A stretch of 64,000 nt of DNA from an uncultured Rhodopila sp. (GTDB lineage: Bacteria; Pseudomonadota; Alphaproteobacteria; Acetobacterales; Acetobacteraceae), in contig NZ_CAJATU010000192.1 of assembly GCF_903944925.1 (NCBI RefSeq), positions 1-64,000 on the forward strand, written 5' to 3'. The position numbers and the translations under genes were made by a program. The notes under the pieces were generated by a model. That model saw nothing but the letters and a program-made list of their open reading frames with translations, did not search any database and was not told the origin of the DNA. Shown here in pieces: positions 27,818-39,798 of the stretch. Every line of letters begins with the position of its first letter. Within the stretch, counting starts at the first letter, position 1.

Positions 27818-28429
27818 TCAAAGGGGTTTCTTGCCGTCCGCATCGCCCTTGGATTCATCGACCACATCCGCCGGCTCGAGGCCCCCCGGCGGCGGCTTGT
27901 GCGCGATACCGTAATGACAATCGATGCAGGTCGTGCCGCTGCCGTCATCAAGCCGGAGGTGCTGCTTCTGCGCGGTGCGTCCCTGCATATCGGCGACCAT
28001 GGCCGAGCGGTCGTGGCAGTTGCGGCATTCCTGAGAGTCGGTTTCCTTCATCCGCAGCCAGACTTTCTTGGCCATCTCCAGACGATGGGCGGTGAATTTC
28101 TCCCGCGTGTCGATGGTTCCCTGGAAATGGTACATCAGGTCGCGCAGTGCTCCCGCCTTGTGCATTACCAGGCCGACGACATCGTGCGGGACATGGCAAT
28201 CCGCACAGATCGCCTTGACCCCGGTGCGGTTGCGGCCGTGGATGGTGTCCTTGTATTCCGCATAATTGTTTTCGGCCATTTCATGGCAGCCGGTGCAAAA
28301 TGCCAGCGTATTGGTGTGCGCAAGCACAGCGCTGAATCCGCCGAGCAAAGCAGCCCCGGCAACCATGGCGAGGATCGCACCGAAGATGATCGATGCGACC
28401 CTGACGTTGACGTATTTTCTGTTGGTCAT
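27818..28429 (-). CDS. NapC/NirT/CymA-like membrane tetrahaem cytochrome c
   Basis: 203 residues. One N-terminal membrane helix (VASIIFGAILAMVAGAALLGG), then four CxxCH haem sites at residues 45-49 (CTGCH), 75-79 (CADCH), 135-139 (CRNCH) and 168-172 (CIDCH). This is the layout of NapC/NirT/CymA quinol dehydrogenases, which pass electrons between the quinone pool and periplasmic partners. The ATG at 28429 starts right before the membrane helix. It is the last of three leftward genes, behind a monohaem cytochrome and an outer-membrane cytochrome-porin. Confidence 0.9.
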   Translation of the reverse strand: MTNRKYVNVRVASIIFGAILAMVAGAALLGGFSAVLAHTNTLAFCTGCHEMAENNYAEYKDTIHGRNRTGVKAICADCHVPHDVVGLVMHKAGALRDLMYHFQGTIDTREKFTAHRLEMAKKVWLRMKETDSQECRNCHDRSAMVADMQGRTAQKQHLRLDDGSGTTCIDCHYGIAHKPPPGGLEPADVVDESKGDADGKKPL

Positions 28430-28480
28430 TGCCCTATTCGTATACTGCGCCGCGGAAGGAATCTGATGCCGATCCAAGAC

Positions 28481-28867
28481 TTATTTGTGGAGCGTAAGCA
28501 GGAAAGCGATGATGTCGGCGCGTTCCTTCGGATCGGGGTCGCCCTTGAACTTCATGATGGTGCCGGGCACCACCGATTTCGGCGCCGCGAGATACGGCTC
28601 CAGCCGCTCGGGCGTCCAGATCCAGTCCTTGGCCTTGTTGGCGTCGGAATAATCAAACCCCGGCACGGTGCCGCTCTTGCGGCCGATGACGCCGAACAGG
28701 TTGGGACCTTTGCGGTTGCCGCCGCCTTCCTTGACCGAGTGGCAGTCGCCGCAATTGTCGGCAAACAAATCGGCGCCGCGCTTGGCATCGCCGGCCGCGC
28801 GGACCGGGGTCGCGGCCATTACCGCGGCAGCGGCCAGCGCCGCGCACAATACAGACAAGTGTCTCAT
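28481..28867 (-). CDS. Periplasmic monohaem cytochrome c (class I)
   Basis: 128 residues: signal peptide (MRHLSVLCAALAAAAVMAAT, cleavage near VRAAG), the haem site CGDCH at residues 39-43, the GPNLFGVIGRKSG segment of mitochondrial-type/c2 cytochromes, and the distal Met ligand in PGTIMKFKG (residue 105). The ATG shares one base with the stop of the upstream cytochrome-porin gene (TGATG), so translation is coupled. Probable electron shuttle between the outer-membrane protein and the tetrahaem membrane cytochrome. Confidence 0.92.
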   Translation of the reverse strand: MRHLSVLCAALAAAAVMAATPVRAAGDAKRGADLFADNCGDCHSVKEGGGNRKGPNLFGVIGRKSGTVPGFDYSDANKAKDWIWTPERLEPYLAAPKSVVPGTIMKFKGDPDPKERADIIAFLLTLHK

Positions 28868-30282
28868 CAGAATGCGACCCATCCCAGCAGATAAAGCGTG
28901 TTGTTGTTGGAGGCATTGCGCCCGAAGCCGTCATAGTTCGTGCTGCCGCCATTGAACCGGGTGTAGCCGGTATACTGCAACGCAAGCCGCAAATTCGCCC
29001 AGGGCTGGCCCCACGAATCCTCCTTGCCGAACGGCGTCCAGTCGATCTGCACGATATACCCGTCGCTGTCCGGGCTGTTGGACAGGCTGCCGACATCCGG
29101 CGCCGATGCATACAGCAGCGCATCGTTCGAACCATGAACCGAGAACATCCCGACGGTCAGACCCCAGGTCTGGTCATAGTAGTACGAACCATTCATCTTG
29201 AAGGTGTTCAGGGAGAAGTTCTTGTTCGCCGCGGCGCCGCTGGTCACCGACGAATTCAATTGCGCCGTCTCACGAATCGCGGTGGCATAGAGCGAGAACA
29301 CATGCTTCTTGCTCGCATGGTACTGCAAACTGGCATCGAAGCCGATATCCAGGTACTGGTCGGTGCCGGACAACTGGTCGTTGTTGGGGAACACCCCGGC
29401 GGAGATGCCGAAGGTGCCAAGCGACAGCGACAGCTTAGGCGTCTCATGCTGCAACGCCAGACGCCAATACGGTGCCGCACCGTTCAGCACTGGCCCGTCG
29501 GTGGGGAACACCCCCAGCACCTGATGGTTGCCGAGCTGGGGCAGCGCGCCGTAAGCGCCGGCCTCCACATACACAAGGTCGCCGAACAGGCCATAAACCG
29601 TGCTGCCGAGCACACGCCCGGACAGCGCGCCCTCGATCAGGGTGGACGCCGGCGTCAAAGCCAGTTTCGAGGAGGCGTACGGGAAGCTCCAGGCCGGCGT
29701 GCTGTTATACGGGTCGGTTACGGTCGGATTGTTGTTCACCGTCACGCCGAGGATGGCGTCGATCCCGCCGAGTTGGGTTTCCCGGCCATAGCGCAGATCG
29801 AGGTTGTCCCACGCCCAGGTGTGGGCGACTCCGTCCCAGGTGATCTGGTCGAAAATGCCGAGATGGTCGTAAATCCGCCCGGCGATGAAGAAGCTGATCT
29901 GATCGAACGCGATGTTGTCGTTGCCCTTGAATCCCGGCGCGGCCGGGCCGCTCTGGTCCTTCTGCGTTTGGGTATAGGAGGTTTCCACCATCGCCGACAG
30001 CAGCGGCACCTGCCGCGTGCGGGTGCCATCGCTGTACCCGGTCAGCTTGAATTCCCGGCCATGCGCGGTGAGCTGGGGGCCGAAACTGCCGACATGGCAG
30101 GCGCTGCAGGGATCCCCGGTCTGGTCGGAAAACGACGGCACGGCCTCTGCCCTGTCGGCAACGCCGAGGGCGAGCGCGAGGACAATCCGGCCGGCCGCCA
30201 GAGGCGGCAGGCAGGGATGACGGTTCCTCCGCTGCGTCGCGGCCGCAGGGCCGCAGCACCGCATCCATTTTATATTGGTCAT
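28867..30282 (-). CDS. Cyc2-like outer-membrane monohaem cytochrome-porin fusion
   Basis: 471 residues. After a signal peptide (cleavage near AEA, residue 47) comes VPSFSDQTGDPCSACH with the haem site at 59-63, then QLTAHGREFKLTGYSDG. The remainder is rich in alternating aromatic/polar strands and ends with a terminal Phe (LYLLGWVAF), as expected for an outer-membrane beta-barrel. The haem-site context resembles Cyc2 iron oxidases (FARQTG-x2-CxxCH, then FGRxFKLxGY), with SFSDQTG instead of FARQTG. Length also fits Cyc2. Predicted role: electron transfer across the outer membrane; direction and substrate are unknown. AGGTGA precedes the ATG. Confidence 0.8.
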   Translation of the reverse strand: MTNIKWMRCCGPAAATQRRNRHPCLPPLAAGRIVLALALGVADRAEAVPSFSDQTGDPCSACHVGSFGPQLTAHGREFKLTGYSDGTRTRQVPLLSAMVETSYTQTQKDQSGPAAPGFKGNDNIAFDQISFFIAGRIYDHLGIFDQITWDGVAHTWAWDNLDLRYGRETQLGGIDAILGVTVNNNPTVTDPYNSTPAWSFPYASSKLALTPASTLIEGALSGRVLGSTVYGLFGDLVYVEAGAYGALPQLGNHQVLGVFPTDGPVLNGAAPYWRLALQHETPKLSLSLGTFGISAGVFPNNDQLSGTDQYLDIGFDASLQYHASKKHVFSLYATAIRETAQLNSSVTSGAAANKNFSLNTFKMNGSYYYDQTWGLTVGMFSVHGSNDALLYASAPDVGSLSNSPDSDGYIVQIDWTPFGKEDSWGQPWANLRLALQYTGYTRFNGGSTNYDGFGRNASNNNTLYLLGWVAF

Positions 30283-30399
30283 AAGATCACCTGTTGGTTG
30301 GACGTAAGCTCCGTGTGAAACGTTCCGTGGTCACGGTGGGGAGTGATGTGTCAGCCTTCAATCGATATTACTTACTCAGGCCCTCATTATTTTGGCAAG

Positions 30400-30416
30400 C
30401 TAATTTGACATATTAG
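30400..30416. promoter_or_regulatory. Inverted repeat CTAAT-N7-ATTAG upstream of the cytochrome operon
   Basis: A 5-bp perfect inverted repeat spaced by seven bases in an AT-rich patch about 118 bases upstream of the cytochrome-porin ATG. Position and symmetry suggest a regulator-binding site, but it fits no consensus that I recognise. The rest of the gap 30283-30774 holds no supported gene. Confidence 0.3.
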
Positions 30417-30774
30417 TTTTCCTGATCAGCGTCATTGTTGCGGACATTGGCGGTCCCGGTAAGCCGTTCCCGAGGCAGTGTCGCCACAGATGTACCATAT
30501 CCACTTTTTATTACCACGCGGGAAGCGTGCCCCTTCATTATGCAACAGCACCGCTTCATGCGGATTGACACCCGCGAAAGGTTTGCTATAGCGTAACAGT
30601 GCCATTACAGAACCATCGGCGTGGGACACTCTGGCCCGGTGCCAAGCGCGGCTACCGCCTCGGCTATCTCAATCCCACAAGACCATCAGAGCATCGTTCC
30701 GGCTATGATATGACACGAATGCCGCGGGGCCAGCCTGCGCGTGGCTCAAGCGGCGCCGGTATGGCTGATGTGAA

Positions 30775-32067
30775 TCAGCGGTTGCCCAGCCGCAACGCAA
30801 TGCTGCGGGCGTGCGCCTGCAAGCCTTCAGCCTCCGCCAGCGCCACCCCGGCCGGGCCGATGGCCGCCAATGCCTCGGGCGTTGCGGAAACGAAGGTGGT
30901 GCGCTTGAGGAAGTCGAACACCGACAGGCCCGAAGCGAAGCGGGCCGTGCGGCCCGTCGGCAGCACGTGGTTCGGTCCGGCGACGTAATCGCCGACCGCC
31001 TCCGGGCAGAAGCCGCCGAGGAACACGGCGCCGGCGTGGCGGACCCGGGCGAACAGCGCCTCGGGGTCCGGCAGCATCAGCTCCAGGTGCTCCGGTGCCA
31101 GGCGATCGACCAGGGCAACGGCCTGCGCCCAGTCATCGACGACGATCACCGCGCCGTTCGCCTCCCAGCTTGCGCCGGCAATGGCGGAGCGGGGCAGGGA
31201 CGGCAGCTCCGCCAGCACCGCGGCGGCGACGGCATCGGCGAAAGCGGCGCTGTCGGTGATCAGGATGGATTGCGCCGCCTCGTCATGCTCGGCCTGGGCC
31301 AGCAGATCGACGGCGATGCGGCGCGGGTCGTTGTTCGCATCCGCCAGCACGACGACCTCCGACGGGCCGGCGATGTTGTCGATGCCGACGCGGCCGAACA
31401 CCTGGCGTTTGGCTTCGGCGACATAGGCATTGCCCGGGCCGACGATGCGGTCCACGGCCGGGATGCTGGCAGTGCCGTAGGCCAGCGCCGCCACCGCCTG
31501 GGCGCCGCCGATGCGGTAGATTTCAGTGACGCCCGCACGGCGCGCCGCGGCCAGCACCAGCGGGTTCAGCACGCCATCGGGAGTCGGCACGCACATGGCG
31601 ATCCGCCCGACCCCGGCCACAACCGCGGGGATGGCGTTCATCAGCACGGAGGATGGATACGCCGCCTTGCCGCCCGGCACGTAAAGGCCGACGGCATCCA
31701 GTGCGCCCCATCGCATGCCCATCGTCACGCCGGCCGCGTCGGTCATGCGCAGATCCTGCGGAAGCTGGGCGCGGTGGAACGCCTCGATCCGCGCCGCGGC
31801 CAGGTCCAGCGCCGCCGCCAGTTCCGCCGAAATCGAGCCAGCCGCCGCGTCGATCTCGTCCGCGCCGATGCGCAGCGTGTCCGGCGTCAGGGTCAGCCGG
31901 TCGAACCGGGCGGTGTACTCGATCACCGCCGCATCGCCGCGGGCGCGAACCGCGGCGAGAATCGCCGCCACGGCGCGGTCAACGCTTTCGGTGGTTTCGC
32001 GGGCCTGCGACAGCAGGGCGGCGAATGCAGCTTCAAAGCCGGTGTCGGCGGTTGAGAGACGGATCAT
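30775..32067 (-). CDS. hisD: Histidinol dehydrogenase
   Basis: 430 residues, normal length. It catalyses the last two oxidations from histidinol to histidine. Signatures are LYVPGGKAAYPSSVLMN, IVGPGNAYVAEAKRQVFG, IAGPSEVVVLADA, LAQAEHDEAAQSILIT with the zinc ligands, RLAPEHLELML and the YVAGPNHVLPTGRTARF loop. It lies downstream of hisG on the same strand with a 194-base gap. Confidence 0.97.
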   Translation of the reverse strand: MIRLSTADTGFEAAFAALLSQARETTESVDRAVAAILAAVRARGDAAVIEYTARFDRLTLTPDTLRIGADEIDAAAGSISAELAAALDLAAARIEAFHRAQLPQDLRMTDAAGVTMGMRWGALDAVGLYVPGGKAAYPSSVLMNAIPAVVAGVGRIAMCVPTPDGVLNPLVLAAARRAGVTEIYRIGGAQAVAALAYGTASIPAVDRIVGPGNAYVAEAKRQVFGRVGIDNIAGPSEVVVLADANNDPRRIAVDLLAQAEHDEAAQSILITDSAAFADAVAAAVLAELPSLPRSAIAGASWEANGAVIVVDDWAQAVALVDRLAPEHLELMLPDPEALFARVRHAGAVFLGGFCPEAVGDYVAGPNHVLPTGRTARFASGLSVFDFLKRTTFVSATPEALAAIGPAGVALAEAEGLQAHARSIALRLGNR

Positions 32068-39784: not shown

Positions 39785-39798
39785 TTGATTCAGATCAA
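39785..39798. promoter_or_regulatory. FNR/FixK-type box TTGATTCAGATCAA
   Basis: A perfect match to TTGAT-N4-ATCAA, the binding site of FNR/FixK/Anr regulators. It lies between the leftward hydroxylase gene (ATG 39696) and the rightward rpsF operon (ATG 40042). A TAATAA at 39820-39825 on the plus strand is near the spacing of a class II FNR promoter. On the minus strand a comparable -10 is less clear. Which gene is controlled is open. Confidence 0.6.

Follow-up and report, generated by a model that had tools for sequence, protein, structure and literature searches.

The stretch analysed here, hereafter the window, comprises 64,000 nucleotides of a contig from an uncultured Rhodopila sp. (NZ_CAJATU010000192.1, positions 1 to 64,000), and it carries three leftward open reading frames (ORFs) in series: cyc2, a class I cytochrome c gene and napC. 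We propose that this presumptive operon encodes one electron conduit running from the outer membrane to quinone, a reading to which we give a probability of about 0.6. In the proposed mechanism, the single-haem Cyc2 barrel would trade electrons with a partner outside the cell, for which dissolved Fe(II) is the precedent in the family; the class I cytochrome would serve as a soluble shuttle in the periplasm; and a dedicated NapC-type membrane protein would couple the shuttle to the quinone pool. Evidence for this model comes from the gene content, the predicted barrel of the first gene product, the recurrence of Cyc2-NapC linkage, the distinct type of NapC involved and the phototrophic host. 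The initial annotation, made from the window alone, had suggested such a route between the quinone pool and the cell exterior; it is kept as the best reading, strengthened by the recurrent linkage and the distinct NapC type.

Layout of the operon

Four features make up the proposed operon and the region upstream of it:

28867..30282, minus strand: gene 1, Cyc2-family cytochrome-porin, predicted to lie in the outer membrane; 471 aa, one CXXCH, signal-like N-terminus, haem region AVPSFSDQTGDPCSACHVGSFGPQL, then 16 long strands (model residues 93-469)
28481..28867, minus strand: gene 2, class I cytochrome c (c2 / mitochondrial type), predicted to be periplasmic; 128 aa, one CXXCH; the alternative start ATG 28882 would give 133 aa
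27818..28429, minus strand: gene 3, tetrahaem NapC/NirT-family protein, putative quinone oxidoreductase; 203 aa, four CXXCH, one N-terminal membrane anchor, haem IV motif CIDCHYGIAHKPP
30283..30774, no strand assigned: hisD-cyc2 intergenic stretch, the expected seat of the operon promoter, with a plausible ribosome-binding site AGGTGATC directly before the ATG

The ORF list and translations place the three genes where the initial annotation had put them, including the one-base overlap of the first two: the cyc2 stop codon and the cytochrome ATG share a base in TGATG (28865-28869). A second possible cytochrome start, the ATG at 28882, lies in frame 15 bases upstream. For napC, the ATG at 28429 (27818-28429) was judged by inspection to be a likelier start than the TTG at 28477 (27818-28477). 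The operon is flanked by an amino-acid permease gene on one side and by hisD on the other.

Identity of the three genes

Gene 1 has no match in Pfam up to E 1, in NCBIfam or in PHROGs, and neither gene 1 nor gene 3 matched a solved structure by sequence at E up to 0.001. It is nevertheless a real gene and no chance ORF, because full-length homologues that keep the haem motif are common. Matches to gene 1 were found in 76/395 genomes of the order, in 77/398 genomes of the phylum, more than half of them N-terminal matches only, in 36/199 genomes of the Cognatazoarcus family and in 48/369 genomes of the class of the Cognatazoarcus genome.

Cyc2 proteins have been defined by the pattern AXPXFAR[Q/K][T/Y], a CXXCH, a PXL, a 16-strand barrel and a length of more than 365 aa (PMC8406198). 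The gene 1 product, at 471 aa, exceeds this length. Its single CXXCH lies near the N-terminus in the context AVPSFSDQTGDPCSACHVGSFGPQLT, and the PXL follows downstream (CSACHVGSFGPQL), with P and L invariant in 13/13 alignment rows. The pattern upstream of the CXXCH is not matched: AVPSFSDQT keeps A, P, F, Q and T, and has SD in place of AR. An AlphaFold2 model built from a 13-row alignment, in which residue numbers equal protein numbers minus 1, contains 16 long strands (residues 93-469) and three 3-residue strands, at a mean predicted local distance difference test score (pLDDT) of 66.5 and a predicted template modelling score (pTM) of 0.71; residues 36-66, which contain the CXXCH, lie below a pLDDT of 50. 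A Foldseek search with this model gave 257 matches at E <=0.001. The best 50 of the 257 are all outer-membrane barrels, with E values down to 4e-9 and modest TM-scores (0.26-0.44 by query length). OprO and OprP are among the matches, and both have been reported as structural templates for Cyc2 (PMC8406198). On its homologues and its predicted fold, gene 1 is a Cyc2-family cytochrome-porin, probably located in the outer membrane.

Gene 2 matches PF00034 (E 7.3e-12), and its best solved-chain matches are cytochrome cy, mitochondrial cytochrome c and cytochrome c2. Gene 3 matches PF03264 (Cytochrom_NNT) at E 1.1e-61, with 208 bits against a cut-off of 24.1. The features expected of the NapC/NirT family are all present, namely four CXXCH, a CXXCHxM at haem I (CTGCHEM) and an N-terminal anchor read from the translation, while the scores lie under the NCBIfam cut-offs for the napC_nirT model TIGR02161 (203.8 versus 310.6), TorC (189.8 versus 478.2) and NapC (173.2 versus 349). 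The initial annotation had named the three products as a Cyc2-type cytochrome-porin with a barrel of about 16 strands, a class I cytochrome c and a tetrahaem NapC-type protein, and had presumed an alphaproteobacterial host. Each of these assignments held: the first through the homologues, the barrel model (pTM 0.71) and Foldseek, the second and third through their Pfam matches, and the last through homologue, PufLM and solved-chain matches that point to a Rhodopila-like member of the Acetobacteraceae.

The phototrophic host

The contig that contains the window is 139 kb long and comes from a 7.0-Mb genome of 99.4% completeness. PufL and PufM are encoded in the same genome, and a tetrahaem ORF that adjoins the puf genes was taken for PufC. 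PufM is closest among solved chains to 7xxf_M, from an entry that we take to be the Rhodopila globiformis complex of PMC9640540. RuBisCO-family proteins are also encoded, one scoring 447 bits. The presence of both PufLM and RuBisCO makes the host a purple phototroph similar to Rhodopila. R. globiformis itself has its growth optimum at pH 5 and contains ubiquinone, menaquinone and rhodoquinone (PMC9640540).

Two further cytochrome loci of this genome were observed. After the puf genes comes an ORF (L196:5874-6854, contig C42) that contains two CXXCH, and the class I cytochrome query matches at both. A second NapC gene (L195:6648-8325, contig C64) adjoins a gene for an ethylbenzene-dehydrogenase-like PF09459 protein with one CXXCH.

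Recurrent linkage of Cyc2 to NapC

Neighbours of Cyc2 were counted in flanks of 1.5 kb on each side, or up to the contig end, so that absences are lower bounds. The count covered 179 Cyc2 places, after removal of cyc2 ORFs of <140 aa, of L280 and of L001, L007, L051, L161, L162, L168, L248 and L265 (duplicates and the window itself; L007 and L051 are the broken copy of a sister species). A gene-2-like cytochrome lies within 1.5 kb of 79/179 places, with the window counted. NapC lies within the same distance of 7/179: the window, L013, L133, L169, L170, L171 and L175, which belong to three distant groups. The gene order of the window is repeated in a Zoogloeaceae metagenome-assembled genome (MAG; L013, where NapC is cut by the contig end) and in another class (L133/L197). 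In the Cognatazoarcus family, napC is divergent from cyc2 at three places (L169-L171/L198-L200), and a fourth place combines a more distant Cyc2 with a truncated NapC (L175/L209). At an eighth place, L280 (G931:C218), a NapC CIDCHFAIAHKEP lies directly upstream of a different type of Cyc2-like ORF AMPAFARQTGKACTTCH. The pairing that the initial annotation had singled out as deserving attention is rare yet recurrent, and it occurs in both orientations.

Additional evidence for the conduit reading came from comparison of the NapC proteins. The window NapC has 65% identity with its L199 and L200 counterparts (over ~155 residues), 48% with that of L198 and only 42% with the second NapC of its own genome, and in a phylum sample of 249 genomes it scores no more than 182 bits outside its own genome. 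In a NapC tree that included 28 rows of a panel, one starred set (97/86) unites the window with L198, L199 and L200; L013 joins this set at 93/84, and the second NapC of the host falls among the panel rows. With the L199 NapC as query, 143 of 199 genomes gave matches, and the top three, at 465 (self), 372 and 272 bits, are all cyc2-adjacent (L199, L200 and L198); the fourth scores 211. These data suggest that Cyc2-linked NapC proteins largely form a type of their own.

At the position directly after the CXXCH of haem IV, 6/6 readable Cyc2-linked NapC proteins have Tyr, Phe or His and 0/6 have Lys; the NapC of L013 and L209 end before haem IV and are outside the six. In other NapC proteins the residue is Lys in 48/54, Gln in 3, Ala in 2 and Phe in 1. 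L232 and L245 escaped the pattern and have, by eye, Lys and Thr, which brings Lys to 49/56. The Fisher value for this contrast, 1.8e-5, overstates it because the six proteins reduce to roughly three independent cases (the window/L198/L199/L200 clade, L197 and L280). The one Phe outlier, L303, is a NapC (1486-2085, CIDCHFGIAHNEP) beside an ORF with ten CXXCH (480-1439), as in an Mto-type conduit. There are hints here that an aromatic residue after haem IV could mark the NapC proteins of outer-membrane conduits generally, and the signature is offered as a candidate sequence marker for such proteins, a lead for further work.

An alternative explanation is that Cyc2 and the cytochrome work as a pair, as in other Acetobacteraceae, and that napC is a passenger serving another periplasmic enzyme. 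The relevant comparison is with 81 other Acetobacterales places that hold a near-full-length Cyc2, shorter fragments being left out: 79 loci, of which L082 holds two, and the paralogue of the window's own genome (L004, L052-L130). Consistent with a passenger, a gene-2-like cytochrome lies within 1.5 kb of 52/81 of these places and NapC of 0/81, not counting the broken sister copy, which has NapC. The passenger explanation is improbable, however, given that distant groups show the same linkage, in both orientations and with a distinct NapC type, and that another, more ordinary NapC is available elsewhere in the genome.

Descent of the window Cyc2 and decay in a sister species

A first Cyc2 tree of 175 rows, which further excluded L021, L151, rows without a CXXCH and rows with <300 residues after it, gave a long-branch warning and was rebuilt with 60 hand-picked rows. 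In the 60-row tree the window Cyc2 is a long single branch outside an Acetobacteraceae clade (20 rows, 100/98) that includes its own paralogue from the same contig. This lone deep position agrees with the divergent branch that had been suggested at the outset. In the approximately unbiased (AU) test, joining the window Cyc2 to the Acetobacteraceae clade gave p 0.060, and joining it to a beta/gamma clade gave p 0.177. Horizontal gain of the window cyc2 is plausible from these comparisons, but it is unproven because the test rejects neither joining. Descent from an ordinary Acetobacteraceae Cyc2 was likewise considered and is not shown, the window protein lying outside that clade (100/98) with an AU p of 0.060 for joining it.

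The paralogue lies beyond the window (L004:4938-6374; C192 88962-90374), is 39% identical and reads FAAQTG. Its neighbourhood contains three class I cytochrome c genes and two ORFs that look alike by eye and have no Pfam match. As a separate observation, Cyc2 homologues occur on nine plasmid records (H1-H9), from Polymorphobacter, Caballeronia, Acidiphilium, Acidithiobacillus, Paraburkholderia, Methylocystis and Ideonella.

In a sister MAG (L007, 7716-9973) the operon likewise sits between hisD and the permease gene, at ~90% identity. A block of 974 window bases (29808-30781), which spans the region upstream of cyc2 and its first 158 codons, has no counterpart there, and the remainder is interrupted by frameshifts or stops in each of the three genes. 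Single lesions could be put down to errors in the MAG, but hardly all of them. The ratio of nonsynonymous to synonymous substitution rates (dN/dS) between window and sister is 0.06 for Cyc2 (222 in-frame codons, dS 0.30) and 0.21 and 0.09 for two stretches of NapC, with dS of 0.30-0.37 overall. These low ratios show purifying selection on the operon during most of the time since the split, and the loss in the sister is probably recent.

The state of the sister copy raises the alternative that the operon was imported long ago and is now being lost, silent, intact in the window by chance and broken already in the sister species. The loss of the first 158 Cyc2 residues, together with the frameshifts and stops, is consistent with this, as is the GC content of the operon (0.58-0.65), which is below that of hisD (0.71-0.72), though the permease gene across from hisD is at 0.62-0.67. 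All three frames are open in the window, however, and with the low dN/dS values this makes a decaying import very unlikely.

Direction of electron flow

If the three proteins do act as one conduit, the shuttle cytochrome would probably be able to serve the reaction centre, or an oxidase, as well, and electrons from outside the cell therefore need not climb to quinone. In the version that we favour, Cyc2 and NapC would both feed the cytochrome, which would reduce the reaction centre. This is an attractive version because it would reconcile Fe(II) uptake with the potentials of the components. The evidence on direction points both ways. As the main use, net electron uptake, to which we give about even odds, seems likelier than disposal, which we hold less likely than not; uptake is slightly favoured by the verified function of the family, Fe(II) oxidation.

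The same wire could also run outward, with menaquinol, rhodoquinol or ubiquinol passing electrons through NapC and the cytochrome to Cyc2 and on to an acceptor such as soluble Fe(III), dumping excess reductant during photoheterotrophy in acid water. Transfer from NapC to the cytochrome would be downhill, since gene 2 resembles c2-type cytochromes, which usually have a high potential. We know of no extracellular acceptor for this host, which counts against outward flow. ImoA, a NapC-family protein of low potential (0 to -400 mV), oxidises quinol in vivo (PMC13390432), Cyc2 isoforms have been linked to ferric iron reduction by acidithiobacilli (PMC10715153), and R. globiformis has all three quinones (PMC9640540), each of which is consistent with disposal. 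The biochemically verified activity of Cyc2, however, is Fe(II) oxidation (PMC8406198), and we consider the outward version rather unlikely.

Several observations weigh against a single conduit to quinone. The potentials favour flow from quinol to cytochrome, and by the measure of ImoA and MtoD, transfer from a c2-type cytochrome to NapC would be uphill; moreover, monohaem MtoD (+155 mV), although encoded beside ImoA, need not be its partner and in Sideroxydans proved to have a potential too high for feeding it (PMC13390432). NapC linkage is a minority arrangement among Cyc2 places (7/179), and the window Cyc2 is not in the beta/gamma clade (23 rows, 100/99) to which the NapC-linked L013, L133 and L169-L171 belong, although the AU test does not reject joining the two (p 0.177). 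The L197 NapC falls near but outside the clade of the window NapC, beside a panel row (95/73) with which it forms two long branches, and the truncated L209 NapC groups with the panel, also outside that clade. In the search with the L199 NapC, genome G931 ranks fifth at 210 bits, and G401 and G962, in which the linked NapC genes run into contig ends, score lower still (best E 5e-51 and 6e-31). With these three within or under the ordinary range, not every Cyc2-linked NapC stands apart by score. Finally, the operon is broken in the nearest relative, L007, and hence dispensable there.

A more far-reaching proposal builds on the conduit: a NapC subfamily, recognizable by replacement of the haem IV Lys with Tyr, Phe or His, might hard-wire a single-haem cytochrome-porin to the quinone pool and support light-driven growth of an acidophilic purple bacterium on Fe(II), which would be photoferrotrophy without Pio or Fox, from a cassette spread between distant bacteria. 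As a whole, this proposal is doubtful.

The haem motif across Cyc2 homologues

The initial annotation had read the haem context SFSDQTG, which differs from the FARQTG of iron oxidases, as a possible sign of another substrate or direction. This argument fell on comparison with the 81 other Acetobacterales homologues, in 74 of which the R of FARQT is absent; the context was accordingly rejected as a mark of a special substrate, loss of R being usual in the order. The strict pattern PXFAR[QK][TY] fails in 76/81. The R is also absent in 8/25 Cyc2 rows of mixed origin, and in 0/68 rows from the Cognatazoarcus family (30), the class sample (24), Magnetococcia-like (3) and Zeta-like (11) sets. As judged from these alignments, replacement of R is a mark of a lineage rather than of the window's operon. 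The motif filter of a published Cyc2 database (PMC8406198) would lose 76/81 of the Acetobacterales homologues, and motif-based surveys probably miss most of this Cyc2 lineage.

Relation to known systems

The Cyc2 cytochrome-porins of Acidithiobacillus, Mariprofundus and the Gallionellaceae (PMC8406198) share with gene 1 a lone CXXCH at the N-terminus, preceded by AxPxF..QT and followed by PxL, as well as a 16-strand barrel and a length of >365 aa. The window protein differs from them in the replacement within FAR (SD), in its isolated branch and in its NapC-type partner gene. The Mto pathway of Sideroxydans, with ImoA/CymA (PMC13390432, PMC12442390), likewise brings together a conduit in the outer membrane, monohaem cytochromes of the periplasm and a protein of the NapC family, and MtoD and ImoA/CymA are encoded next to mtoA. 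The Mto conduit consists of a decahaem cytochrome, MtoA, seated in the separate porin MtoB, whereas the window has a single-haem fused porin; no window ORF of >=70 aa has more than four CXXCH, as an Mto- or Pio-type conduit would require.

Within the same bacterial family, a Cyc2 homologue beside a monohaem, Cyc1-like cytochrome has been described (PMC10715153). The neighbours that the available text of that source reports are mono- or dihaem, with NapC not described, and the window Cyc2 lies outside the main Acetobacteraceae clade. The closest parallels are the Zoogloeaceae-type cyc2-cytc-napC loci (L013, L198, L199 and L200), which have the same three gene families, a NapC up to 65% identical and, in the three that are readable, the aromatic haem IV residue. 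They differ in that napC is divergent in 3/4 and that their Cyc2 proteins are 42-44% identical to that of the window and belong to another clade. Both the association of the NapC family with the multihaem Mto conduit and the placement of Cyc2 beside mono- or dihaem cytochromes in the Acetobacteraceae are already published. Searches of an open-access library, a collection without most subscription journals, turned up no published pairing of Cyc2 with NapC.

The route by which Cyc2 electrons reach the quinone pool, and the reversibility of Cyc2, are not settled in the literature sampled here. The three-gene unit bears on both questions, as it unites outer-membrane, periplasmic and quinone-side parts and could be moved into a laboratory strain for testing.

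FNR-like sites in the window

A scan of the window for FNR-like patterns gave 17 matches with <=2 mismatches, against 9.2 expected, and only one of them is exact. The two matches at 28463 and 30765 have two mismatches each. The exact palindrome, TTGATTCAGATCAA, lies at 39785-39798, far from the operon.

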